Assembly: GCA_903813345.2 (NCBI GenBank)
Contig: CAIIXF020000003.1
Location: 3,624,109-3,688,108, forward strand
DNA length: 64,000 nt
DNA from: Owenia fusiformis
Lineage: Eukaryota > Annelida > Polychaeta > Sabellida > Oweniidae
Reading direction: 5' to 3'
The position numbers were made by a program, and so were the translations under genes. The notes under the pieces were generated by a model. The model was not told the DNA's origin. It saw only the letters and a program-made list of their open reading frames with translations, and searched no databases. This document shows positions 6,902 to 61,230 of the stretch, in pieces; position 1 is the first letter of the stretch, and each line of letters begins with the position of its first letter.

Positions 6902-8674
6902 CTACGAATGATTCATTTTGACCATAGGGATATTTGCCAATAATTGCACCTTGTCCTTTAGGTACTGAGACACAACAGGAGCATCACATTTACTACTTAA
7001 ATCATGTATAAATTCAGTTCTTTGTTTCTGGAAATGAGGACAGAGGAGGAAACGATGGATGGGATCATCTATTACATTTAAGTTACATAATTTACAAAAA
7101 CCGTTACTTATTTTCCATCTTTTTCTGTCTTCCTCAAGGTTAAAGCAGCCTGTTCTGGCCAGAAACTTAAGTCGAGAGGTGTAAAAGTCTGTATGGTTCA
7201 TGAGGTACTTCTCTTTATTTGTATTAAATTTCAAATTTTTATAGAGGTTCAAAGACTTTTTATCATTGATTGCTTCAATAAATTCAGATTTTCTTTGATC
7301 ATTTGAGATTTTGAGAAATGAGTCGTACCAGTCTGCATTGTCGGATGAAATGCATCCGTCTAGACCATGGGCAGTTAATATCTTTGACACGGAATCAATA
7401 TATGGCCATACTGAGCTTTTCTTTGCTTTAAAGTTAGAGAACATATCACTGTAAATATCACCTAAGATCTTACAACTTTTAGCTTTATTTTTCAAATGAA
7501 TAAAATAATCTATTTTACGTTTATGTATAACATTCATAATTGGTCTCCAACCTAGGTCACCAAGTAGAGCGTCCCTAGCTGGTGTACTTTTTATATTAAA
7601 TATTGCTCTTCCTACATTATACTGATATGAGTTCATAGCATTTATTCTTGTATTATTGTCAAATGAAATAACTCCACATGCATGGAGAATTGCTGGTATG
7701 AAAACATTATTATGTAAAACATCCCCAAATTTGAATCTTTCTAGATTTGAGTGTTTATTAAGGGTGCTACAGATATAGAATCTGGTCTTTCGAGCTTTCT
7801 CTTTAATAAGTGTATTAAAGTGGTCTGAGTCTTTTAGAGTATTATTTAAAATAACACCTAGATACTTATATGTTTTGGTTTCTTTTAATGATAGTTGTCC
7901 AAGTTTCCATTGATTATTTGTATTAATTTTTCTACCAATTGGCATAATTTGAGATTTCTTAGGGTCAAATTTGAATCCCCAATATTTGGCAAATGAGTTA
8001 GAAACTTTCAGCATTTCAGTAAGTTGATCTTCAGATTCAGATATCAGAACTACATCATCAGCATATAAGAGTGCAGGGACTTTGTAGTTTTTAAATGGTA
8101 TTCCTAGATTATGTTCTTTAAGTCTTTCTGTCAAATCATTTATAATTAAGAGAAATAATGTTGGGGATAGAGCACAACCTTGTCTTATTCCAAACTCTGA
8201 ATCAAACATGTCACTTTCAAAGTTACCAAAAAGAACTTTATTCCTTATTCCCTCATAAAGTTTTCTCAAAATGCGCCATGGCTTACCCTTAATACCTTTT
8301 TCCCACAATTTCTTAAAAAGAAGGTCCCTACTTACTACATCAAAGGCTTTTGAAATATCAAGAAATGCTAGAAAAGTTTTCAATTTAATGTCTTTCCTTA
8401 ATGCGCAAAGTCCCTTCAGAGTAAATATACTATCTTCAAGGCGTTTACCTTTCATGAATGCTCCCTGGAAGTCATCAAAAATTCCTTGTTTCACACAAAA
8501 GTCCATTAGTGAGTCTTCCATGAGAGCAGCATAAAGTTTATACATATTTGAGGTTACAGCTATGCCCCTGTAGTTGTCTAAGATTTTCATTGAGTTTTTC
8601 TTGTGGATAGGTTTGAGGAGGCCATCTTTCCAATCAGAAGGAAAGTCTTCTCTGATCATAAAAAATTGAAACAT
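6902..8674 (-). pseudogene. LINE reverse transcriptase domain and C-terminal zinc-knuckle-like region
   Basis: About 590 open codons. The YADD catalytic motif is at residues 204-207 of this segment, LDISKAFD at 105-112 and GIRQGC at 162-167. The metal-binding aspartates are intact. The frame continues upstream past one TGA (8702-8704) into the next segment, so this is part of a longer broken ORF and the ATG is not a true start. Confidence 0.88.
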
Positions 8675-8701
8675 TCTAAAGATAGATTTTGAGACTGCTG
8701 G

Positions 8702-9025
8702 TCATCCATATTTGAGGAATTCATTTGGAATTCGGTCTATGCCACATGATTTGTTATTTTTCAGTAATTTAATCTTCTGTTGGATTTCGTCGGCTGTAAA
8801 GGTTATATATGAGAAGGATTCTGGTGGGAAAGATGTTTCATTTTCAAAATTTAGCATATCTTGTTCCAAATTGGGTTTTTTATGTTCTGGGTTTTGATTA
8901 CTTTGACCTACATTCTTCCAATAGTTTTTCAGGGTAATTGATATTTGCTTAGGGTCGGTTATGATCATATCAGGGTTCTCTGTGTCAATCAATTCTAAAG
9001 GGTATTTACTTCTAGCATTAAACAT
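8702..9025 (-). pseudogene. LINE linker and start of reverse transcriptase domain
   Basis: Same frame as both neighbours. It contains the usual RT-proximal block SCGIDRIPNEFLKYG, ended by TGA. The frame is also interrupted upstream by a small poly(A)-tailed insertion. Confidence 0.8.
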
Positions 9026-9029
9026 AGTT

Positions 9030-9116
9030 AAGGTATTCCAAGGTAAGGTATCTGCTTGTATGATGTATTATGAAATAAAGGAAATATAAAAATTAAAAAA
9101 AAAAAAGGTATTCCAA
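9030..9116 (+). mobile_element. Tiny poly(A)-tailed retro-insertion nested in the LINE
   Basis: A 63-bp insert (9042-9104) is flanked by a perfect 12-bp duplication AAGGTATTCCAA (9030-9041 and 9105-9116). It contains GAAATAAAGG, an AATAAA signal, and ends in an A-run. Removing one duplication plus insert (75 bp) keeps the LINE frame. This is the signature of LINE-mediated insertion of a 3' transcript end. Confidence 0.8.
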
Positions 9117-9133
9117 AATGATCTAGAGCTAGA

Positions 9134-9940
9134 TTATTTGGCAAAACAATTTTTCAACATGATATTTATATGATTTTGTGTATGACGCTCCTTAATGTAC
9201 TCAGATACCTTTCCTTTCCTTTCAAGATATATTTGCCATACTTCCTTTAACATATCAGAATTCACATCAGGGATTTTGGAAAGATATCTATGAAATTTAC
9301 ATGCCTCCTTTCGACTTTTTATCAGACCCTTCAATGTGTCATCCCAAAATGACCTACATTTTGAATCAATAATTGACTCCCCAATCGTGTTTTTACCAAT
9401 ACTAGTGATTTTACCTTTCCAGTCATTCCACGCTGCATCAGCATTTTCAAAGCTTTCAGGTTCCCAATCTTTCAAATATTCATGTGCCCTTAACTTAAAA
9501 GGTACCCAATCTGTATTCTCAGATATTTTCCACTTTGAATGTTTTGATGCAAGTGCAACATTAACTGGTTTCATGACCTTGGTATGATTAAGGTGCAGTT
9601 CAATTGATATCATCGAATGATCGCTTCCAATTGACATATTATGACATTCATCAATAAGCATAGTATGTACTGAGTTCAAACACATAGCATTAACCAGAAC
9701 ATAATCAATTGTGGAATGGAGATCATTTCTTTGCCACGTTATCTCACCAGTACATTTATCAGACAAGTTCAAAATACTCATGTCAGACACTTCACATAAG
9801 ATTTCTAATAGATCGCCATTTGGAGTCTTTGTTCTCGATTTTCTAAGTTGTTTAATTTTACCATTGAAGTCACCTAAGATTAATATATGTTCATCTTCAT
9901 TAAATTCTGATAAGTTACTTAATATTTCATCATTCATCAT
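9134..9940 (-). pseudogene. LINE AP-like endonuclease fragment
   Basis: Carries ILGDFNGKI (the GDFN block), STIDYVLVN and SDHSMISIEL (the terminal SDH). The N-terminal catalytic Asn and Glu blocks are absent, so it could not cut DNA. It ends at TAA 9134-9136, in frame with the segment that follows. Confidence 0.82.
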
Positions 9941-9968
9941 ATGTCCTTTAAATCTTTTTAATTGTTAG

Positions 9969-25190: not shown

Positions 25191-27442
25191 GTATGTATAG
25201 GAATAACGATTTGATTTTTAGATTTACTGAATTGGCTGTTTGATATTTTCCGTCCCATTCTACTTTGTTAAAATGTTTGGATTAACTATCACGCCCGGTG
25301 ATCATGAATATGGGACGGAGGGGGGGGGGGGGGGGGGAGCAGGCAATTTCTGCTAGGAAATTCAACAAATCTGGAAGATTTATTTTTTCAAGAAAAAGTT
25401 TACTATTGAATTGCTAAATGGATAGGCGCTCGGTATGGTAGAATATGTTGGTTTTCTGGGATTTTTTCTGAAACGATACGCATCTAAGGTATGAGATCTA
25501 TTAAAAAAGGCGCAAGGCCATCAACAGGCACAAATCAACGTTTTTGCTATAAAGCAAACAACAATGGTCTGGACGACCTGTAATAAATACTTGTAAGTGA
25601 TGTTATAATAACTAAATTAATGTCATTGCTGAATTTATAAAATAAGTTTCCATATGTGAAATAAAAAATAATCGAAAATAATGAATTTGGGACGGAGGGG
25701 GGGGGGGAGGGGACGGAGGGGGGAGGGGACGAAGGGGGGGGGGAGCAATATGTATATAAGACATGATTAGAGATGTTTCGCGACTTTAAGTCCTTTTACT
25801 CCAAATGTCCCCATTTTTCAGTCTCCAGGGGTACATCATCCAGTTTCTTACTAAGTTAATGAGTTCATTTTTCAAATACAAGAATTCGTGTGAAGTTGTT
25901 TCACTTTATAGAATTATTACTCCCCCCTCCGTCCCCTCTCCCCCCCCCTTCCGTCCCATTTTAATTATTTTCGATTATTTTTTATTTTACGTATGGAAAC
26001 TTATTTTATAAATTCAGCAATGACATTAATTTAGTTATGATAACATCACTTACAAGTATTTATTACAGGTCGTGTAGTCCATCGTTGCTTGATTTATAGC
26101 AAAAACGTTGATTTGTGCCTGTTGATGGCCTTGCGCCTTTTTTTAATAGATCTCATACCTTAGATGCGTATCGTTTCAAAAAAATCCCAGAAAACCTAAC
26201 ATATTCTACCATACCGTGCGCCTATCCATTTAGCAATTCATTAGTAAACTTTTTCTTGAAAAAATAAATCTTCCAGATTTGTTGAATTTCCTAGCAGAAA
26301 TTGCCTGCTCCCCCCCCCTTTGTCCCATATTCACGATCACCGGGCGTGACTATAAGAAGTGTAAATTAATTTCGAAAGCTTATATAAAAGGAAGTCGTTT
26401 CAAGAGGATTGTCAGCTGAAATAATATTCATAAAATATCCAAACTTGAATATATTTTGACATTGGTCCATGATCGTTCAATGGCCCCTTTGTACTATTTG
26501 TTGCACCTTTAATAAGTCAAATGAATAAACGATCATTTATCCTTGTGTGTTGTAGGTAGCATCGGCCACGTGTCGAGCGGTTCAAACCTCGCACCTTCTG
26601 TTGGATTAGATACAACCGCTGTTGAACGCACTCTCGTTCTCTACGCGTACCATGAAGCCAGAGACAGAAAAGTCAACTTACAATTCTTCCTTGATTTTGC
26701 GATAAAGAAAGACAAGAACAACTCGAATATTGATTACGCCATCATAGTGAATGGGTTCAATTGCTCGGCTGATATTCCAGCAATGAGTAACGTACACGTG
26801 ATCAGAAGGGAAAACACTGGGTTTGATTCGTGTGCGTGGAAACATGGTTTACGTACGATGAAGAGTAAAAAGGGGGAAAAATGGTACAAATATGTATTTT
26901 TCATGAACACATCAGTACGTGGGCCTTTCCTACCTGTATACGCAGTAGACCAACACTGGACTTCAATATTCACCAAATACTTTTCAGATGATGTCAAATT
27001 AGTTGGAACAACTGTTTGGTGCCCACATCATACTCAACCAACCTTCAAGCTACATCTACAATCCATGTTTTTGGTGACTGACCTAACTGGACTTAAAATC
27101 CTTGAGCCCATGCTTCAATGTGACCACGAGAACAAACAGTCTGCAATTGATAATTTTGAAGTCAAACTGACGTATGCGTTTATCGAAAAGGGGTATAACG
27201 TCGCATCTATGTTAAAACGCTGGGAAGGCCATGATTTCAGAGACAAGGAAAAAACACACAAAAAGTGCCAACATGACGTCAGAGGAAAGCATAAAGGTGA
27301 TCCATATGTGCGCAACGGATACTATACGAACATCGAAATACATCCACTGGAAGTCGTGTTTTTCAAGACCAATAGGGGATTACAGGAAAACACCATCAAA
27401 GCATACACTGAAATGATGTATGAAAACAGACTAGATAAGTAA
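25078..27442 (+). CDS. Type II membrane glycosyltransferase-like protein (RgpF/rhamnan-synthesis-like), partial at 5' end
   Basis: Two exons, 25078-25190 and 26556-27442, join in phase 1 (G|GT) through GTATGT and TTGTAG sites. The first encodes a hydrophobic stretch (about CIAVICVQVAIFCMSVALYM) typical of a Golgi signal anchor, followed by a Ser/Thr-rich stem. The second encodes about 295 lumenal residues: YAIIVNG, then RRENTGFD, then YVFFMNTSVRGPF, LVGTTVWC, and near the end HPLEVVFFKTNR. The NTGFD and N(S/T)SVRGPF blocks are typical of a glycosyltransferase-like family related to bacterial rhamnan synthesis F, seen in algae, amphioxus and lophotrochozoans. A Golgi sugar transferase is inferred; donor and acceptor are unknown. 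The first exon starts mid-codon with a stop just upstream (25052), so an initiator exon must lie further 5' and was not found. No AATAAA was seen soon after the stop. Confidence 0.75.
25289..26349. mobile_element. 1.06-kb palindromic (foldback) element inside the glycosyltransferase-like gene intron
   Basis: It begins TCACGCCCGGTGATC and ends GATCACCGGGCGTGA, flanked on both sides by CTA, a possible 3-bp target duplication. Arms of about 430-455 bp are near reverse complements. The spacer of about 175 bp is 25745-25918. The arms hold G-runs (18 G at 25320-25337; GGGACGGAGG-type repeats at 25688-25743). No transposase. Confidence 0.88.
26556..27442 (+). CDS. Terminal exon with catalytic-like domain of glycosyltransferase-like protein
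   Basis: A long uninterrupted frame to TAA at 27440-27442. The acceptor is TGTGTTGTAG. Codon use is less AT-biased than the flanks. The NTGFD motif is encoded from 26813. No frameshift or internal stop. Confidence 0.85.
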
Positions 27443-28383: not shown

Positions 28384-29058
28384 CGACCAACGTGTACTAC
28401 TAATATCTAGACTTTCTCTTTCTCGATCCAATGAAGTACTAATCGCCGTGTACGATGTATTATGTATATAGTTCGGAGAAGGGATACTGGCGGTTTTTGG
28501 TTTCCAAAAAAGCGTTTTCTCCTTTCAATCAAGGTTTATTCTCTATAGGGTAAGTACTAATCTATCTGGAAACATTTACAAGTTTGGTTAGAACGGAATT
28601 TTTAGAGATGGCGATGTGATTTTCGAGACTATGTAGAGCAGAATAAGTTTCTGAAACAGGTAGCTTTACAGTAGTAGCTCTCTCCAGATTCAGTTATCTC
28701 AAAAACGATGTGTTCACCGTATCATTACCTTGTAACGGCAAGCTAGACAAGACTCCGATGAACACTAGGCATTGTTTCGCTGAGCTAGATCTGTGCCCAT
28801 GAATATATTATGAAATGAAACGTTATAATGGTCCTAAATGGGATTTTTAACTACAATCTTGACCCGATACAACGTGCAGCAGTGACGGACATGTGGGGTG
28901 AAAATTTGGTTACATCCACCATAAGACCGTAAAATTATAAAAGTCCAATTTCCAAGGTCCAATCTATGATGCATATGTGACGGCGGTATCTTTGTGATGT
29001 TTCTGAAACAAACAAATTATGAGAATGTTGTTGCCATGACGTTGAAATAAATTCATTA

Positions 29059-29066
29059 TGACGTCA
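29059..29066. promoter_or_regulatory. CRE palindrome TGACGTCA upstream of decapeptide gene
   Basis: A perfect TGACGTCA lies 71 bp before the ATG, with an AT-rich GATAAATAA box about 39-31 bp before the ATG. Position fits a proximal promoter, but a single 8-mer is weak evidence. Confidence 0.3.
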
Positions 29067-29136
29067 TAGAGATCTTACCTGGATCCGAGTACAACGGGAT
29101 AAATAATGTAGTGATGGACGTTTGATTTTTAAATCC

Positions 29137-29211
29137 ATGCAAAATATGGGGACATTCAAATTTATTTCATGCATTCTAATCTGTCATCTGACAGTTGGAT
29201 TTCCATTGCCG
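29137..29211 (+). CDS. Exon 1 (signal peptide) of decapeptide-repeat protein
   Basis: ATG at 29137, with a second in-frame ATG at 29146 that could also start. A hydrophobic core (FISCILICHLTVG) precedes the donor GTGAGT. Confidence 0.82.
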
Positions 29212-32184
29212 GTGAGTAGAACTTCCTGGATTGTATAAATACTCTCAGAGATGAAAACAGCAAGTTTATCAAAATTGATCAAAGTTTTTTTAAGTTTGAT
29301 AAGGTTCAATCGGTTTCAACATTTCAGTTCAAGTTTTAAGAAACTACAACTATACAGGGATCCGTTTTTGAAACCGTCGTAACTTACGATTTGGTCGCAA
29401 TGTTCATCAAAACAGAGACACATGGTTTTCTCGGAATCGTAAGTTACGATCGTACGAAAAACGACTTCCAGTATAGCTATTCATTCTGAAGATTATGTTC
29501 TTGTTTTCTGTCTCTACTTGACTACTGGTAATTAATATAACTTACCTCTCGTGTAACCGCTGTTAATATGTCAAACATGTGTTGGACAGATGCCTAAGCG
29601 GACCATGACACGTAAATAAATATATGATTTGCATATTTCGTAGCATATTTTAAAGCGATGATTTGTACAAACAGGGTCCCCGACCAGCAACAAGGCCATG
29701 TGAAAAGAAAGAAGATTGTAAAGCTGGCAAGGAGTGTGTAAGGGACGATCGGCCGTTGGATGGAACGGATCCTTCTCTACCGATTAAGGGGTGGTGTGTA
29801 GAGAAAATGAAAATCGAGAAGCTTGTAAAACATGGAAAAGATACAGCTGGTCGGTCAAACTTACAAATATCTAAATCAGGTATTAGGTCTTTTATCAAAT
29901 ACTTCAACGTGAATCAGATATCAAGTGAAATGAAAACAAATCAAAGAATCTGCATGACTTTTTTCAATCAATTTTCAAAGGATGATACATTTGAATAGAC
30001 TTCAAAAGTATTGCATGTATAGACTTATAAAACAGCATAAAATATTCTATGATTATCACATAAGCTTGAAGGAACTGTAGAATGCAATTCAACTTTTTCG
30101 TGATTTTGAGGTCATGTCTGCACTTTACAGTTCAAAATATACTTCTGTAGTAATTTGATAACATCTTCTTGTTTGCCTCACTGACATCTTCTTGTTTCTC
30201 GAAACATGATATTCTCTCAAAATCAAGAAATAGAGTGATTGGCAGGACAATTTGTAAACTAAAAGAAAAGTGCATCTATTTTCAAACAAATTCCTGATTA
30301 TTTTTACAGAAGATGTGGACGTGAGAAGCATAAAAAATCCGCAGAAAGGACACTTGACCTCACATGAGATAATTCCGTATATAAAAAGTCAAATCACAAG
30401 TACAGTTGATACAAAATTACCAGGCAAACCTACAAAAGATGCGAAACGTCCAAACAAGAATACGATGGATGTTCACTTGCCAGCAATATATACAAGATAT
30501 CCCCATCGTACTAACAACTACACTAATAATAGAATGCGCCCAAACAAAAATGAATTAGACATAACTTTGCCAAAGAAATATGAAATCGTTAAACTGTCAA
30601 ACAAGAAAGGTATAAAAAGTCCGAAAAAAGCAATGTTCGACATAAAATTACCAAAGAAATATGCTTTAATTAAACGTCCTAACAAATATGAAAGATGCAG
30701 AAACAAATGTAAGAAAGACAAAACACGTTCAAGGGAACAGTCAAAAGTTAGAAAGTGCGCGAAGAAATTTCCAACAGGTAAGAAATATTCAAAGGATAGA
30801 AAACGTCCAAAAAAATATAAAAAAGATATGAAACGTACAAAGAAATATACAAAATATAGAAAACGTCCAAAGAAATATACAAAAGATGAAAAACGTCCAA
30901 AGAAATATACAACGGATAGAAAACGTCCAAAGAAATATACAAAAGATAGAAAACGTCCAAAGAAATATACGAAAGATAGAAAACGTCCAAAGAAATATAC
31001 AAAGGATAGAAAACGTCCAAAGAAATATACGAAAGATATGAAACGTACAAAGAAATATACAAAAGATAGAAAACGTCCAAAGAAATATGTAACGGATAGA
31101 AAACGTCCAAAGAAATATACAAAAGATAGAAAACGTCCAAAAAAATATACGATAGATAGAAAACGTCCAAAGAAATATACAAAGGATAGAAAACGTCCAA
31201 AGAAAAATACGAAAGATAGAAAATGTCCAAAAAAATATAAAAAGGATAGAAAACGTCCAAAGAAATATACGAAAGATAGAAAACGTCCAAAGAAATATAC
31301 AAAGGATATAAAACGTCCAAAGAAATATACGAAAGATATGATACGTCCAAAGAAATATACGAAAGATAGAAAACGTCCAAAGAAATATACAAAAGATAGA
31401 AAACGTCCAAAGAAATATACGAAAGATAGAAAACGTCCAAAGAAATATACGAAAGATAGAAAACGTCCAAAGAAATATACAAAGGATAGAAAACGTCCAA
31501 AGAAATATAGAAAAGATAGACAACGTCCAAAGAAATATACAATTGCGAAAGATAGAAAACGTCCAAAGAAATATACAAAAGATAGGAAACGTCTGAACAA
31601 ATATACAAAAGATAGAAAACGTCTGAAGAAATATACAAAAGATATAAAACGTCCAAAGAAATATACAAAAGATAGGACACGTCCAAAGAAATATACAAAA
31701 GATAGAAAACGTCTGAAGAAATATATAAAAGATAGAAAACGCCCAAAGAAATATGCAAAGGATAGAAAACGTCCAAAGAAGTTTAAAAAAGACAAAAAAC
31801 ATTCAAAGAAATATACTAAAGACCGAAAACCTCCCGGGAAATACACAAAAGAGAGGAAACGTACAAATAAATATACAAAAGATGGGAAACGGAACAAGAG
31901 AGACATGGTAAGTTATGAAAAATCAGTTATTATTCCATTTCAGTTTTTCATTGTCACAAAAAAATCAACATAAGGTGATCCTTCAAAGTCCTAATTTATC
32001 AAATCATATGTAGATTTTATGTACTGTTTATGTTAATGTAGTATCCAATATGATAAACGTGTCAAATAATAATTTCTATTCGTAAGCTGAGCAAGCCATG
32101 AATGATCAAGCTAACTTCTTGATGTTGCAGAATATGGTGGATGCAATACATGGAACCTTTATCGGACAAGAGTCGTACATTTAA
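29137..32184 (+). CDS. Secreted basic decapeptide-repeat protein (37 x KKYTKDRKRP-type), 4 exons, 643 aa
   Basis: Exons 29137-29211, 29675-29879, 30310-31907 and 32131-32184 join in phases 0, 1 and 0 with good GT-AG sites. Exon 1 is a signal peptide of 25 residues ending TVGFPLP. Exon 2 has four cysteines (C-x5-C-x5-C-x19-C) within CEKKEDCKAGKEC and GWCVEK, a small cysteine motif of unknown family. Exon 3 opens with degenerate longer repeats around DIxLPKKY and KRPNK, then 37 tandem decapeptides with consensus KKYTKDRKRP. Each consensus unit has four Lys, two Arg, one Asp and one Tyr (net +5). Exon 4 adds a short non-repetitive tail. The product is extremely basic and tyrosine-rich. Tyr/Lys decapeptide arrays are known from mussel foot protein 1, and Lys/Tyr-rich proteins from worm cements and mollusc shell matrix, so an adhesive, cuticle or matrix role is plausible but inferred. 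Pro after each KR makes furin-type processing unlikely. Homology is not recognised. Confidence 0.85.
29350..29477. mobile_element. Foldback MITE of about 128 bp in intron 1 of the decapeptide gene
   Basis: Arms start CTATACAGG and end CCAGTATAG. CGTAACTTACGAT near 29380 is exactly inverted as ATCGTAAGTTACG near 29440. Confidence 0.68.
29675..29879 (+). CDS. Exon 2 (four-cysteine module) of decapeptide-repeat protein
   Basis: The acceptor is ACAAACAG and the donor GTATTA. Encodes 68 residues plus one base, with the C-x5-C-x5-C-x19-C pattern. No stop in the chosen frame. Confidence 0.82.
30088..30240 (+). repeat. Repeat of about 150 bp in intron 2 of decapeptide gene, copy at 39225-39360
   Basis: Shares GTGATTTTGAGGTCATGTCTG, GCCTCACTGAC, TTGTTTCT and ATATTCTCTCAAAATC with 39225-39360 in the same orientation and order. 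Confidence 0.6.
30310..31907 (+). CDS. Exon 3 (repeat array) of decapeptide-repeat protein
   Basis: The acceptor is TTTTTACAG and the donor ATG|GTAAGT. It encodes 532 codons after a split Glu. The 30-bp units run 30780-31895. One unit has a two-codon insertion, giving a 12-residue KKYTIAKDRKRP. Confidence 0.88.
30780..31895 (+). repeat. Coding 30-bp tandem array, 37 units
   Basis: Units begin AAGAAATATAC and end CGTCCA. The period is exactly 30 bp apart from one 36-bp unit. Central copies are nearly identical, and the last four are the most divergent, as expected from unequal exchange homogenising the middle. No unit carries a stop or a frameshift, so the array is under coding constraint. 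Confidence 0.95.
32131..32184 (+). CDS. Exon 4 (C-terminal tail) of decapeptide-repeat protein
   Basis: The acceptor is TGATGTTGCAG, in phase 0. Encodes 17 residues ending GQESYI, then TAA. The only nearby AATAAA is at about 32716. Confidence 0.7.
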   Translation, partial: NMVDAIHGTFIGQESYI

Positions 32185-35100
32185 GACAAGGGATATATCG
32201 GACCAAGATACACCGAGAACATCGAATCCATGTCAACAACATACACTCCCCTTCATAAATTTGGTAACCGCGGGTTTTCATTCGATAACATATCAACACC
32301 TGCCTGTCAATGTTTGAAATTTTGACAATGGTACGGGATTTTTGTCGTCATTAAATGATGAATTTTTTGATCACCCATCATTATCCGTTTTTGAATTATC
32401 CAAAAGGAGATTGCCGGTTACCAAACTTTTAGAGAGGGTGTATATCTGAACTAATACACTCCCTGGACCAACTATTTTTGAAACCCCGTCTCACTCTTTA
32501 ATAACTATTTTAGACTCTTTATGTTTACATTTTTCCTCACTAGCACAAAAATGTTCGACTTTTGAAGAATCAACACTTAGCACGAGGTGTGTGTTGCCAA
32601 ACTTGTTTGTATATTTCGGGTAGTGTAAATGTTTGGATAAATTCTAGAAGGACAATTTCAAATGTAACATCTGGATTTTAACATTCATATTAAGTATGTA
32701 GTATTTACCGTTTAGTAATAAAAATATTCACGATGCAAAGATCGCTTACTGTATTTAAGAGGTCGGGCCCAAGCCTTTGGGGCGTTTTTCCAAAAGTAAG
32801 TAGTCATCATGCATGTCATGTTATCGTGTAGATTTTGAAAACTTACACCCTTGTCAAACCCTGCCTTGGGGCATAGGCACTTTGCGTATTTAAGTAAATG
32901 AAACACAAGAGGGCGCTGTTACTGGAACTGTTAGTTAAATACTGTACCAAGCTTCTTATGTGAACTTCCTGAGACAATATTAGCAAGACGTTACCCTTGT
33001 CCAAATCTGTATTTTTTTCCTCATCTGATCTTAAATCATTACGATAAGAGAAATCACGATAAGTAAAAGAGACCGACTCGTGGCAAAGCTAGCAAGAAGT
33101 GCACTCTTAACAGAAGGTATAGTCCATAGTTTGAAATCTCTAGGACGTCTGATAAAGGAGCTGGTAGCGCAGTGATATTTGACCTGACATTAGCATACCT
33201 ACATATGTTGCCTTATAATTTTTATTATAACCGTTCAATATACTTCCGGCTTTTAGGCTGAATTATGCCTGCCATTAACAGAGGTCAAAAATCACTAAAA
33301 AATAAAATCCCAATTTTTCACAATTTGGAGTATACAATGCAACAGAAAATAATACAAAATGATTTTAAATTTATGATTTAGGTTTCTAAGCTATAAGTTT
33401 GAGGTTAATTTTTTATCAATACCAAAAAATATGTAATCAGTGTATCGACGTTTTGTATTGTTTCTCAGGTATTAATAAGATAAATGCTACAAATGAATCA
33501 CTTTTATATTGGAATGACAAATGTTAGAGATTATGCTAGTTTTTCACAAAATGGGTCTTAATACGTTTTGAGATATGGACTTTTATTTAGCGGTGAAAGT
33601 TATCAATAAAGGAGGGCCTATTGCTCTTCCTTGACTAATTGGGACTACAGCTAAAATACTATTTCCCGTAGTTAGATATAGGTCAGTTGCTTGTTAAACA
33701 ACCATCAAGATTTGATCAAATTCATGAATAATTGAGAAAAATCGTTATCATTATCTTCTTAAAATTCGATTATATCCAGCATCGGTAAGGTCAAAGAAGA
33801 CACAACCATCAGAAAACTTGATGGTAGCCACAAGTAACGTCGAGGAAGAATTGTAAGGCGTTCGATTGCATATGACTCTAATTGATTATTAGACATGCCC
33901 TTGGAATATAGGAACATTCCAATACCTCTGTAACATTTAATTAGATATTAATCTTACCTATTTGTTATTGTATTATGTTTTATAAAACATGAACAATAAT
34001 TTGTTGTTAGACCCCTTGCGATTATATGGAAAAGTTCTGGTAATAAAATGTTCTAAATAGTAAGAAAACTAATATGTTCCCAATCATAAATTACCTAAAT
34101 ATTCCACATAATTTTGTTGAATCGGCTTGGCTCATATTTGAAAAATCAAACAAAATCTGAAAAACACACTTACACTAATTAAATACCAACATCTACGGTA
34201 GAATTAAATTGTATATATTTTAATTATGATAATCTATTTTTGTTCGTATGCTTAGAATGACGGTCTATGTCTTATAAAATGTATAAAAGTTCGAATCCAA
34301 ATATTTACGTTTTTTGACCCCCTGTGATGAAAGACATTTTTCGACCCGAAAGCCGGAAGTTTTTCAGCAAATGGTATTTTAAAAGAATCAAGACATATAC
34401 ACCTTCATAAATATTGCTTCAAATGTTGCTGCGCTATCGTGTGCTACATATCCTTCATATTCGGAAGCCATACCATGGACTAGTACTTGGTGTTTTTCAT
34501 TCGTTTTGAATTAATAGATGGCGTATACGGTAGACACCTTGCGGTGTTCCCTTTGTTTGAGCCGTCTTTGGTGACAGATACACGATCGAGTACTTACCTA
34601 TCCATTGAAAAAAAAAATGATGTTAAAAAGTAAGTATTCGTATCATTTTGGTGAAGAACTACTGAAAACTGCGGATAGAGCTAGAGACGCTTTCATTATC
34701 AAAATATGAAGAAAACGTGAAATACCCTAAAGGCCTCCTAACATATGAACAAATCCTCCCTTCCCAACGTCAACTTGCGTGTATTGGCGCATAGGACTTA
34801 AACGTAAACGTCATTCCCGTTATATTGTCAAAGAGTTTTGGAGAAAATCCTTCTTAAAATCCCCCTAAAACTTCTTTCAGTTCAAAACGAAGGCCTAATT
34901 CATGTAATTTTGATAATGATGCCCAAAACCTTACACTCCAAAAGGCAAATGTGTCAATTTGATTTATGCGGGATTTTTATTCACGAAGGGATATGGAATC
35001 TGATTTCTGACCGATCGGCCATTGCTACAATATCTGTCTCAGGTACCAAAAAATCAAAGAAAGATGGAATGTAAAGATCAGTATGATGTTGTTGAAATAC

Positions 35101-44540: not shown

Positions 44541-45175
44541 TTTATTGTACAGTTTTACTGAGGAGCTTTACTGTACAGCTTTACTGAGGAATTGTACTGC
44601 ACAGCTTTACTGAGGAATTTTACTGCACAGTTTTACTGGGGAACTTTACTGTACAGCTTAACTGAGGAACTTTACTGTACAACTTTGCTGAGGAACTTTA
44701 CTGTACAGCTTTGCTGAGGAACTTTACTGTACAGCGTTACTGAGGAACTTTACTGTACAGCGTTACTGAGGAACTTTACTGTACAGCTTTACTGAGGAAC
44801 TTTACTGTACAGCTTTACTGAGGAACTTTACTGTACAGCTTTACTGAGGAACTTTACTGTACAGCGTTACTGAGGAATTTTACTGCACAACTTTACAGGG
44901 GAACTTTACTGTACATCTTTACTGAGGAACTTTACTGTACACCTTAATACTGAGTAATTTTACTGCACAGCTTTACAGGGGAACTTTACTGTACAGCTTA
45001 ACTGAGGAAATTTACTGTACTGTTTTTCTGATGAACTTTACTGTACAGCTTTACTGATGGACTTTACTGTACAGCTTTACTGAGGAACTTTACTGTACAG
45101 CTTTACTGATGAACTTTACTGTACAGCTTTACTGCAGAGTTTAACTACACAGCTTTATTATAGAACTTAACTGCA
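44541..45175. repeat. 26-bp minisatellite, about 24 copies
   Basis: The unit is GAGGAACTTTACT plus GTACAGCTTTACT. Most copies are one or two bases from consensus. The two 13-bp halves are themselves alike (9 of 13), so the array grew from a 13-bp ancestor. It lies about 0.6 kb beyond the 3' end of the GPCR. Confidence 0.93.
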
Positions 45176-45786: not shown

Positions 45787-47100
45787 TTATACATCATATA
45801 CTATATTTCCATTAGGCAAGGTTCTCTGCACATGTTTTTTCTCAAGTAAGGTAGAATGTCCCTCGTGGCCGTCGTCCATATTGGCTTGTCCATTTCTGTA
45901 TGGCTTACTTATAAACTTTCTCAGTGGGCCGAAGTTTTTCTGTGACACAATATTTCCGGTATAACTTTTATCTCTAATGGTGGTATTTGATTTAGAAACC
46001 ATACTTGCTTTTCGAAGAATGCTTACATTGGTGTAGTTCGTCTCCTCGAACCGAAAGATGTCGCTGTTAGGGCAGAATCGCCAACATTTGAACATCACCA
46101 GGAAAATACGACGGAACTTTTTACCAAAGACGCAATATAGTATGAAGTTGACAGCCGAGTTTAGAATGACCATATTGGTACAAATACTATAGAAAATGAT
46201 ATACCACCTTGAGTTTTGGATCTCGTTCGGTAAGAAGGCTGTTATAATATTGTCTATGAGGGCAGGGAATTGGCAAATGAGGAACACCATTATCACTGCA
46301 ATCAGCATCACTGTTAGATTATTCTCTCGTAGCGTTCGAGTATTCATTGTCGCCCGCGTCGCTCTGGAACGATTTACCGCTTTTATTAGTAGCGTATTCA
46401 GTATAGTCAGCAATAGGAATGGTATCAGAAAAATGACAAGAATATACGCTATAACCATATAAGTGACTTTATATATTTTATTCCAGTGTAGGTCCTTATA
46501 GACAATCCTCGGTACAGTGGCATTGGTGGCTTTATCTAATGTTTGGGTCACTCCGAATTCTAACATTCGTGGAATATTGAAAACGACAGCGCAGAATATG
46601 ACTGTCACTACAACTCGCTTCGCACGTGGAATTGTGCACATATTTGCAGCTTGTAATGGGTGGCATACTGCTATAAATCTCTCAACTGTGAACGCAACGG
46701 TAATATAAATCGTACACGTCTGAGATATGAGCGTCAACGGGTAGCCAATCGGATGAAGATTTGGGTAGAATTTCGAATACGTCATCAAGTTGCCTTGGAG
46801 ATACCCGGCCATTGCTGGAATGGCAAGAAAAAGCGCTGAACAAAGAAGGACTACAATATCAAGGATGGCGAGTGCCATAAGATAGATAGACGTTGATGAT
46901 CTCATCCGATGGTTGCTAAGCACAACAATGGATAACAAATTACAGATGACACCAAAGGCGCATATGATATTGGACACCAAACCGGATTGGAATTGTATAT
47001 AATAAAGTTCCAAGTCATCTCTGTAATCCTCTTGGCAACATGAAACATTATCCATTGTATCATTTGTTGAATTCATGACTGATGTACCCATATCAGCCAT
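45787..47100 (-). CDS. FMRFamide-receptor-like rhodopsin-family GPCR, single exon, 437 aa
   Basis: A complete intronless 7TM receptor for plasma-membrane neuropeptide signalling. The N-terminus has glycosylation sites NST, NDT and NVS. TM1 (about 40-63) has GVICNLL, TM2 (73-95) LALAILD-like LMALAILD, TM3 (120-142) ends ERF in place of DRY, TM4 (160-178) ends FNIPRMLEF, TM5 is 210-238, TM6 (262-288) has CQFP, TM7 (298-324) has NSAVNFILY in place of NPxxY, and FGKKFRR begins helix 8. ERFIAVCHPL and the NIPRxxE block after TM4 are typical of the FMRFamide/myosuppressin-type group expanded in lophotrochozoans. The tail has possible palmitoylated cysteines (CWRFC) and many Ser/Thr. Position 3.25 is His (H116) and extracellular loop 2 has no Cys, so the usual disulfide is missing. 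The ligand is unknown. The first Met gives a family-typical length. Confidence 0.92.
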   Translation of the reverse strand: MADMGTSVMNSTNDTMDNVSCCQEDYRDDLELYYIQFQSGLVSNIICAFGVICNLLSIVVLSNHRMRSSTSIYLMALAILDIVVLLCSALFLAIPAMAGYLQGNLMTYSKFYPNLHPIGYPLTLISQTCTIYITVAFTVERFIAVCHPLQAANMCTIPRAKRVVVTVIFCAVVFNIPRMLEFGVTQTLDKATNATVPRIVYKDLHWNKIYKVTYMVIAYILVIFLIPFLLLTILNTLLIKAVNRSRATRATMNTRTLRENNLTVMLIAVIMVFLICQFPALIDNIITAFLPNEIQNSRWYIIFYSICTNMVILNSAVNFILYCVFGKKFRRIFLVMFKCWRFCPNSDIFRFEETNYTNVSILRKASMVSKSNTTIRDKSYTGNIVSQKNFGPLRKFISKPYRNGQANMDDGHEGHSTLLEKKHVQRTLPNGNIVYDV

Positions 47101-48749
47101 AATCGCCTCAATGTGTATACTGTTGAATGGAGATATGCCTTTCCAAATAATCCCTCAACTTATTTGTTTAGATACATCTGCAGCAGAAAGTCGATGTTCA
47201 TGTTGATTACGGTAATAAGATAGTTATACTTTACTAATAGGGTTGACAATACTTTTGTACAGATATGTTCCCAACCAAAAAATTATCCAAATCAATAACA
47301 TATACGTTAATATTGTTGATAACTTTTGCACAAATATGTTCCCAAAAAATTATTCAAATTGTTTTTCAAGACATCCGTCACACAGCTATCCAAATTACTC
47401 ATATATTCCAAATTGTGGCGTCTCGATTTTGTGTCTTTATCAAACGCATTCAAATGTCGAAAGTCGCCATCATCTAATGCAGTAGAACATAAGAAACTCT
47501 ACGGCAAACTCAGTTATTCTCAACACATCTTCAGGGAATTGTCATATGAAGCTTCAATCTATTTTCTATTCATAAAATGATATTGTGTTAACTCCTTGTA
47601 TATCATGTCGAATAAGATTAAATGAATACTTGATCGCTTTGATCTATTATCCTCCATACAATGATCTCCCACTTTTTGTAATAACGTCACGTATAACCTC
47701 GTATCACCTCTTATTCTTTTAATAATTTTCTTGACTTGTTTTGACACTTTCTTATTTTGTTTGTAGCTTTTTTCCGTTATAATTATAAATCAATTAATCC
47801 AATGCCACCAGGCACATGCATCGAATATATGAATTGATATAATGTGTCCGATTGAAGATTCTATAATATACAAACAGATCGTTAGCTATTTATCGTACGT
47901 GTTGTGTGAAATAAGTAAACTAAAAACTTATAATTCATGCCCGCAATCTACATGTGACATTAAGCGCCGCACCAAGCGAATGGAAACGACCCAATTACTG
48001 GTAAAACGTGGAATCCTATTTAAAAGGTCTTGAGAATTCCATTCGTTTATATCAACGTCTCTGGTCGTTTTTATACCACCAAACAACTCGCAGTGGATTG
48101 TATTCGTTGCTGCAATAGAGTCTCATCAAGTTCCGAACAAAGTCAAATCACATCAAGAATGCGTAATACTTCCAGTCCAATTTAGAATATCTCTCGAACT
48201 ATAGACTAGAATGGGTTATGATCGCTGTTGTACTAGAACGCTCTAGAGTCGCATCGAGTTCCGAACAAAGTCAACCACTGCAGAGCCAGAATTCCAATTT
48301 AGATGATCAATGTCATTATTTTGTTTCCATGTTTAGTGATTCGATTAGCGCAATTATGTGCCTTCTATTTCTGAATAACCGGTTCGATTTGTAATTAAAC
48401 CAAGGCGATTAGCTCCATTCACGGGTCAGATTTACATTTTATCACGATCTGCTGTGTGGTTTGAATAGTTTGCGGATAAAGCTTCGTAGATATGTTTGGA
48501 TAGCTGCACCATCTGAAATGAAAGAACAATTGCATTTAGAAACGTTCCGTTGACTAAACCACAGTGAAACAATTTACCCTGGAATTAAAGGTCTGGATAA
48601 GCGTTTGGGATTTTAACGACATCCATTTGCTCGATCGGCCAAGCACCGTATCCAAATATGCATTGCGCATGCGCTACCGTAAAGCACGTGCCAAACACGT
48701 TCAGAAAGTAGACGTTCGTTTTAAATTTTGAAAGGTATCACAAAATACC
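47101..48749. other. Region upstream of GPCR; no coding feature
   Basis: Probably holds the receptor's promoter and 5' UTR. No upstream coding exon is needed because the ORF has a natural start. A repeated phrase GTTCCGAACAAAGTCAA occurs at about 48130 and 48259. Confidence 0.4.
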
Positions 48750-59645: not shown

Positions 59646-61230
59646 TCTTGTCAGAGAACCTTACATACAAATTAGTCAAAAACCGTTGACGTTGATTTGC
59701 ATTGGATTTGTTGACCTATGTAGTTGAGAATTTGATAAATGAAACCGAAATTCATATATCTAAAGTCACTCGCTTTTGTTATAATGACTACCAAACTATC
59801 CAGTGTGAAAAGATGAAACGACACCGTCGTTTAGTTGCGGAGATACATCTTGTTATAAATTAATCCCTACTCTCCCATAGGGAGGGACAATATGTATCAA
59901 CTTTTTCTAGCCCTAAATAAGTAAAAAGGTGAATTCTATATTTTTCTTTGACTCCCAGAATAATAATGTGATGCTTAAACGTTGTCTAAGTTTTGATTCT
60001 AGGAACCAGTCACCTGAACCTAAGTAACGTCTAGGCATTAAACGCAAATTCAAACATGACCGTGCTCTATTCGAATTTCTCAACCAATCAGAATGCAGCA
60101 TAGCCAATATAGAACGTTCTCTAATTCTCCATAGATGCACGACCATGCTCTATTCAATCTGCAATTTGCATTGTTTTGAGTGACGTCACATCTCAGCTGC
60201 ACATCTGGGGCTCTGTCCGGGGATAGCTGTTCTTTTTTACTCCCTCCTCCCTCTATATTTATTTTTATTTTATCAACACCCCATGTTTGCATACACCGTA
60301 TAAAATCTAAAACGCGGAGTAAAATAGAACAGCCCAAACAAATTCTAAAATTCTTCCAGCCGACTTCTTGACAGCATGCGTATTCTTCCTCCATGCCCGT
60401 TCCACACGGCTTTTACTAATTTTTATGTTTGAATCGGAATAAATAATGATATTCGGTGAGTGCATTTGTACTAACATTCTGTCCAACGAGTGCTGAATTT
60501 CACCATATTGAATGGCCTATCATTATTTATTCCTTAAATATATGATTTTCAAAGCATTCTTGTTATCATCGTGTAAGTCTATAAGAATGCCGCATCAAAT
60601 GCAGCCCTGGAGTCATTGCCTCAAATGTTTGAACACATCTAGCTAACAGATTGCCTTAACAAGGGATTGTGTTGCATCACACGGGTGAGTAGTTTCATAT
60701 GTCACATTGGTGTAGTGGGACCGATGAAGAGGGAGCTATAGTGGATTCAGATACGCCTATTCGTATAAAATTACGTAATCCACACTGCACTGCAATAAAT
60801 TCCTTGTTTGAAGGCAGAATTAAATTGCAATATGGCATTGCCCTTTTAACGGACGGCTTTTATGATCTATATGTCCTATAAAGTCAGAACGAACTACCCT
60901 TTTCCTCGATAAGAGATATCACTCGCAATTATAAGCCTAAAACTAGGAATTTAATTCAAAATCGTCGGAAAAGTATGAATGCATTTTATAAAGGTTTTCT
61001 TCAAAGTGAGCACAATTTATAAAACACCTGATCAAAGATCGTGTTGAATGTTTATACTTTGCTCGGCTTCTTCACGAGGATATCAATGTATATTTGTAAA
61101 TCGGAGTAGCAGATCAGAGTGTGTTAGACCAAACAACCATATTGAAAAACAGAAAATGTACTTTTAACCTTTTCACTTTTAGCACTCAAATTTCCTTTGA
61201 AAGAAGAATGGATGGGTATTCTACCCATAT

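Follow-up and report, generated by a model that had tools for sequence, protein, structure and literature searches.

Paralogous decapeptide-repeat genes encoding candidate secreted polycations in the tube-building annelid Owenia fusiformis

The decapeptides of the mussel protein fp-1 contain Lys, Tyr and Pro, with Tyr making up 20% of the residues. Oweniids stand near the base of the annelids and are distant from the sabellariids within this group. As outlined in PMC4275877, fp-1 is a decapeptide-repeat protein with DOPA, and in section 8 of that article the cement of the sandcastle worm is described to contain repetitive basic proteins, an acidic protein and a sulphated macromolecule, with the Tyr of Pc-1 and Pc-2 being present as DOPA. 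In the gland cells of the sandcastle worm, the basic repeat proteins are reported to be packed together with acidic proteins or sulphated macromolecules (PMC4275877, PMC11277488). Polychaete tube secretions were classed as glues and plastics, and oweniids are named among the tube builders choosing sediment grains (PMC4375521). Here, a decapeptide-repeat gene of O. fusiformis is described, which lies in a stretch of 64,000 nucleotides (the window; its contig is called C3), and it is compared with a paralogue on another chromosome (contig C7) and with these systems.

Structure of the window gene and its product

The window gene consists of four exons on the plus strand (75, 205, 1598 and 54 nt; Table 1), which join in consistent phase, as the first-pass annotation had proposed, and its three introns are all of the GT...AG type. 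Translation of the joined exons, which comprise 1932 nt without an internal stop, yields a chain of 643 residues. The signal peptide, the four-cysteine module, the 37 units of consensus KKYTKDRKRP and the short tail named in that annotation are all present in this chain, and a degenerate stretch of 157 residues, absent from its description, is located between module and array. The chain has a computed pI of 10.7 and a net charge of +203, Lys and Arg together account for 42% and Tyr for 6.8% of the residues.

Table 1. Features of the window gene and its immediate surroundings, in window coordinates
Feature	Position	Strand	Basis
Upstream block (promoter/5' UTR) common with the C7 paralogue	29007..29128	+	local alignment
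Exon 1, signal peptide	29137..29211	+	translation, GT donor, alignment with C7 exon 1
Exon 2, four-cysteine module C-x5-C-x5-C-x19-C, GWCVEK at its end	29675..29879	+	translation, C7 counterpart
Interspersed repeat copy in intron 2, outside the protein	30061..30256	.	genome matches
Exon 3, whole	30310..31907	+	
Exon 3 first part, degenerate stretch, four FDIKLP-like motifs, three cysteines	30310..30779	+	translation
Decapeptide array, 37 units	30780..31895	+	unit listing, Tandem Repeats Finder
Exon 3 end, KRDM; donor GTAAGT from 31908	31896..31907	+	translation
Exon 4, tail NMVDAIHGTFIGQESYI and stop	32131..32184	+	translation

Exon 1 encodes the hydrophobic core FISCILICHLTV. The second in-frame ATG, at 29146, is the likelier start compared to the upstream ATG at 29137, since the start codon of the C7 paralogue aligns with 29146, and cleavage of the signal peptide is predicted by eye to occur after ...LTVG. 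The mature chain contains four further cysteines outside the module (residues 223, 227, 243 and 399), and the FDIKLP-like motifs of the degenerate stretch read VDTKLP, MDVHLP, LDITLP and FDIKLP. Poly(A)-type hexamers are found downstream of exon 4 at 32350 and 32717. The repeat copy in intron 2 (~190 bp) has at least 39 further scored matches in the genome with 77-84% identity.

The array is built from 37 units of 30 nt (AAGAAATATACAAAAGATAGAAAACGTCCA) plus one in-frame insertion of 6 nt, and Tandem Repeats Finder reports it at 30780-31891 with 36.9 copies. Its charge had been put at about +185, as would apply to 37 units that all match the consensus, whereas the net charge counted over its 371 residues (K143, R64, D35, E2) is +170. 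The fixed place of Tyr that had been noted holds for position 3 in 35 of the 37 units, the exceptions being Asn in unit 15 and Phe in unit 34. Per codon position of the unit, the array has 4, 0, 2, 9, 3, 2, 9, 3, 3 and 9 non-synonymous hits, i.e., none at K2, three each at K5, K8 and R9, and nine each at T4, R7 and P10. The kept positions of the array are the basic ones.

The paralogue on contig C7 and the extent of the family

The genome searched consists of 525 contigs that add up to 498,259,871 bases. When the beginning of exon 3 of the window gene was used as query, weak repeat matches were obtained on contig C7. At this locus, C7:21994110-21994184 is exon 1, 21994758-21994944 is exon 2 and 21995122 to ~21997476 is exon 3; a counterpart of exon 4 was not recognised there. 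The C7 chain has at least 872 residues and a net charge of +195. Both genes have intron phases 0 and 1. The C7 module follows the pattern C-x5-C-x6-C-x24-C, it has GWCV[DE]K in common with the window module, and its four cysteines are the only ones of the mature C7 chain. Alignment of exons 1 and 2 of both genes gives a score of 93 against a maximum of 45 in 2000 shuffles, alignment of exon 2 only a score of 49 against a maximum of likewise 45 in 2000 shuffles, and the exon 3 DNA is 66% identical over an alignment of 1.5 kb. The similarity extends upstream of the coding region, where the 140 bp of the two genes align with a score of 45 and the next best among 639 window stretches reaches 23. 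The shared block contains in both genes the CRE-like palindrome TGACGTCA (29059-29066 in the window). Each chain has four FDIKLP-like motifs compared to shuffle means of 0.01 and 0.04 and shuffle maxima of 1 and 2, a contrast that is flattering as the motif was defined after viewing both chains. Signal peptide, four-cysteine GWCV[DE]K module, FDIKLP-like motif and KxxKxxKRP decapeptides are shared by both genes, and their common design thus reaches beyond the array to the four-cysteine head and the FDIKLP-like motifs.

Searches for further members returned the same two genes. The exact sequence GGNTGGTGYGTNGANAAR matches the genome twice, in the window gene and in the C7 paralogue, and GWCV[DE]K has two matches in the genome DNA, both in these genes, while the backward control has five. 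The looser WCV[DE]K gives 32 genome matches (control 43), and on reading by eye the module is absent from the 30 matches besides the two genes, one of which is presumably thyroglobulin-like. A protein search with each exon 2, in which a single candidate per query passed the first step, recovered the query itself and did not link even the two paralogues to each other, so that this negative carries little weight, and the C7 upstream DNA likewise found only itself in the genome. The search for relatives of the repeat gave 74 rows, 68 of which lie outside the two genes; 16 of these 68 (eight regions, one row being partly covered) are unrelated tandem arrays, and many of the remaining 52 contain stop codons. 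A match of the exon 3 query on contig C520 was judged by eye to be an unrelated protein. The family would therefore comprise at least two genes, which is a lower bound as a member with an altered motif would escape the search.

No named family had been recognised in the first-pass annotation, and this agrees with the searches: neither chain reaches the cut-off of any Pfam or NCBIfam family, and the PDB yielded no convincing match. No Pfam family matches the window module, and the C7 module matches DX (PF01666) with an E of 0.01 and 16.7 bits, below the cut-off of 25. The fold predicted for the exon 2 module from the single sequence is a poor model (pLDDT 59.8); with this model as query, Foldseek returned no PDB match with an E below 1, the best being an IGFBP (E 1.5) and a Dkk1 complex (E 6.8). 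DX, the IGFBP N-terminal domain and Dickkopf are alike to the family module in a cysteine pattern of the C-x5-DC-x2-G kind, but every profile or fold match remains below cut-off, and these resemblances are leads and not membership. Matches to a ribosomal L14e PDB profile (E 0.14-0.2), to Pertus-S4-tox (E 0.89) and to SspH2 (34.8 bits against a cut-off of 1243) were attributed to chance or composition.

The O. fusiformis genome is described with 505.8 Mb and 12 chromosomes, and its Fox genes are placed on chromosomes 1, 2, 3, 5, 6, 7, 8, 11 and 12; foxQ2 forms tandem groups on chromosomes 5 and 7, while foxC and foxL1 are close neighbours on chromosome 11 (PMC9977687, PMC9539403). Forkhead matches were found here on C1, C3, C4, C5, C6, C8, C9, C10 and C11. 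Four of them are clustered in 17 kb of C8 and three in 21 kb of C10, and on C3 two are separated by 30 kb. If the contigs were in alphabetical order of their names (1, 10, 11, 12, 2, 3 ... 9), C1, C5-C12, C2 and C3 would be chromosomes 1, 2-9, 10 and 11, whose lengths would then decrease steadily from 62.2 to 34.9 Mb. The forkhead contigs would correspond to chromosomes 1, 2, 3, 5, 6, 7, 8, 11 and 12, the two clusters would fall on chromosomes 5 and 7 and the pair on chromosome 11, which would also carry the window, and the paralogue would be on chromosome 4.

Further elements were observed in the window and elsewhere. At 6902-9964 (minus strand) the window has frames of a non-LTR retrotransposon (RVT_1, E 2.5e-35; Exo_endo_phos_2, E 4.9e-10), at 26525-27442 (plus strand) an RgpF-like (rhamnan synthesis F) domain in an open frame (E 1e-11), and at 45787-47154 (minus strand) a rhodopsin-type seven-transmembrane receptor in a single open frame (7tm_1, E 3.4e-25), which is adjoined by a 26-bp tandem array of 22.8 copies at 44541-45134. 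These recognised neighbours, i.e., RgpF-like frame, receptor and LINE, suggest no functional cluster. Similar short frames (ACCQ...ICLGCSILL...) at ~60080-60412 (minus strand) of the window and at another C3 locus are probably an interspersed repeat. At C3:2722500-2723200 (minus strand) a cysteine-containing start is followed in one frame by a mucin-like Thr/Gly/Pro/Ser repeat. Seven regions of the genome carry 30- or 60-bp tandem arrays in which several long frames are open, and constitute a trap for repeat-protein calls.

Coding status and conserved positions of the repeat

On the minus strand across the array one frame is wholly open and two are mostly open, and the openness of the annotated frame is therefore weak evidence of coding. 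Long open frames also occur in unrelated 30- or 60-bp tandem arrays elsewhere in the genome (eight regions read), whose period is unsurprising as these regions surfaced via the decapeptide query. Both observations fit a non-coding 30-bp minisatellite that is open by chance, a reading that can nevertheless be given very little credence. The distinct changes between units were pooled from the window array and two groups of C7 units (22 and 15, anchored cut); of the 110 changes, 39 are synonymous when read in the annotated frame, compared to 27.9 expected (p 0.012). In the other five frames p is 0.07, 0.69, 0.77, 0.94 and 0.98, so that of the six the excess has a p below 0.05 in the annotated frame only. 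The test is modest, as the frame with p 0.07 is an antisense frame and each of the three unit sets alone gives a non-significant excess (p 0.10-0.16). The paralogue, which shares exon phases, module and upstream block with the window gene, is by sequence comparison the stronger and decisive line of evidence. On the basis of the synonymous excess in the annotated frame and of the paralogue the window array is taken as coding, and the gene is a real protein-coding gene, which confirms the original observation.

For a comparison of positions, the C7 units were recut at a fixed ten-residue step over two regular runs (34 units), where Pro sets the register only; the anchored cut (37 units) demands Arg at position 9, so that its R9 in 37 of 37 units, as well as the lack of changes at R9 in these units, is true by construction. 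In the recut units K5 is kept in 34/34, R9 in 33/34, K8 in 31/34, P10 in 28/34, K2 in 27/34 and T4 in 26/34. Tyr is found at position 3 in 10 and at position 6 in 11 of the 34 units and is missing in 14. As these 14 are devoid of Tyr and the others have it at either of two positions, Tyr is not a shared constraint, and what both genes have in common is the pattern KxxKxxKRP, in which the basic residues keep their spacing. The retention of Tyr within the window array is left unexplained by a pure charge role.

Proposed function and comparison with known systems

The window gene belongs, somewhat more probably than not, to a group of two or more O. fusiformis paralogues that encode secreted structural polycations condensing with an acidic polymer. 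By its signal peptide the chain would enter the secretory pathway and be secreted. The four-cysteine head is probably folded, as a small disulphide-bonded knob, and the long tail may behave as a flexible copolymer, which comprises cationic KxxKxxKRP decapeptides and FDIKLP-like stretches, the latter possibly serving as stickers. In analogy to the gland cells of the sandcastle worm, on which both the pairing and the condensation are modelled, the polycation would share its packaging with an acidic polymer, i.e., a sulphated polysaccharide or an acidic or phosphorylated protein, and upon release polycation and polyanion would condense to a material outside the cell, for example a tube lining, a cement, mucus or cuticle. 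Cross-links may be contributed by Tyr. The first-pass annotation had interpreted the product as a DOPA-type adhesive, cuticle or matrix polycation or as partner of an acidic polymer. A protein that is repetitive, strongly basic and, judged by its signal peptide, secreted is retained from this interpretation, while its emphasis on Tyr and DOPA is weakened by the Tyr-less C7 units. The partner option is the preferred one, as the basic spacing is kept in both genes, with the pairing itself proposed by analogy.

The distribution of Tyr and of the kept positions favours this structural polycation with an acidic polymer over a glue centred on Tyr and DOPA. A DOPA-type adhesive like fp-1 or Pc-1 and Pc-2, in which hydroxylated Tyr would bind minerals and cross-link and lysine would aid at the surface, is rather unlikely: 14 of 34 C7 units are without Tyr, which elsewhere occupies position 3 or 6, and the Tyr share of the window chain is 6.8% compared to 20% in the fp-1 decapeptide. 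In its favour are the fixed Tyr in 35 of 37 window units, the selection of sediment grains for oweniid tubes (PMC4375521), the DOPA of Pc-1 and Pc-2 (PMC4275877, section 8) and 14 tyrosinase-domain matches in the genome, counted exon by exon. None of these 14 matches lies on C3 or C7. Signal peptide, four-cysteine head and a Lys and Arg content of 42% would also suit a defence polycation, which as chain or fragments would bind to the surfaces of microbes in body fluid or mucus and disrupt them; this is improbable, as past the signal peptide the window chain has no comparable hydrophobic stretch (best 12-residue hydropathy 0.86) and no family above cut-off was found in Pfam or NCBIfam.

A multi-copy, neuropeptide-like precursor cleaved at dibasic sites is very improbable, although a signal peptide followed by many near-identical short units bearing KK and KR is what such a precursor would show. 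Pro after KR hinders convertases, and such a Pro is found at 26 of the 34 KR sites of the window gene and at 37 of the 48 of the C7 paralogue. The KK-Tyr site occurs 34 times in the window gene and a single time in the paralogue; R-x-[KR]-R is present just once and three times, respectively, the consensus unit has no Gly amidation signal, and dibasic sites that frame each peptide and are kept among the paralogues were not found. Scarcely any weight can be given to a basic nuclear protein of sperm or chromatin whose start was predicted wrongly, for which the Lys and Arg content of 42% would speak, since both genes keep the signal peptide and the cysteine module.

The structural polycation thus preferred can be extended to a more tentative, rather doubtful proposal, in which an oweniid tube or mucus polycation evolved independently of sabellariid cement and mussel byssus and combines a disulphide head, KxxKxxKRP spacers and FDIKLP stickers, would condense with a sulphated or acidic polymer and has Tyr as a dispensable component. 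If true, it would represent a Tyr-light path to underwater assembly. The two genes are concrete candidates for oweniid secretion in a species for which developmental data and a chromosome-scale genome exist, and the Tyr-rich and the Tyr-poor paralogue offer a natural contrast for the roles of charge and tyrosine in repetitive extracellular polycations. In the literature searched no candidate genes for oweniid secretion were found, and the decapeptide unit was not found in print apart from one unrelated chance match to a fragment. In the same limited collection neither Owenia together with mucus, tube and sulfated nor both reference decapeptides together gave a result.

In comparison with described systems, the window gene resembles mussel fp-1 in its long array of tandem decapeptides in a chain that is predicted to be secreted. 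By eye, it differs in that the window unit has a charge of +5 per ten residues with one Tyr and one Pro, and in that the family has a four-cysteine head and FDIKLP-like motifs, with Tyr not being kept across the family members. The sabellariid proteins Pc-1, Pc-2, Pc-4 and Pc-5 are also repetitive basic secreted proteins of tube-building annelids (PMC4275877). A repetitive basic chain is likewise found here, with a net charge of +203 and 37 repeats. The repeats of Pc-1 and Pc-2 are Gly-rich, whereas the window chain is rich in Lys, Arg, Asp and Thr.
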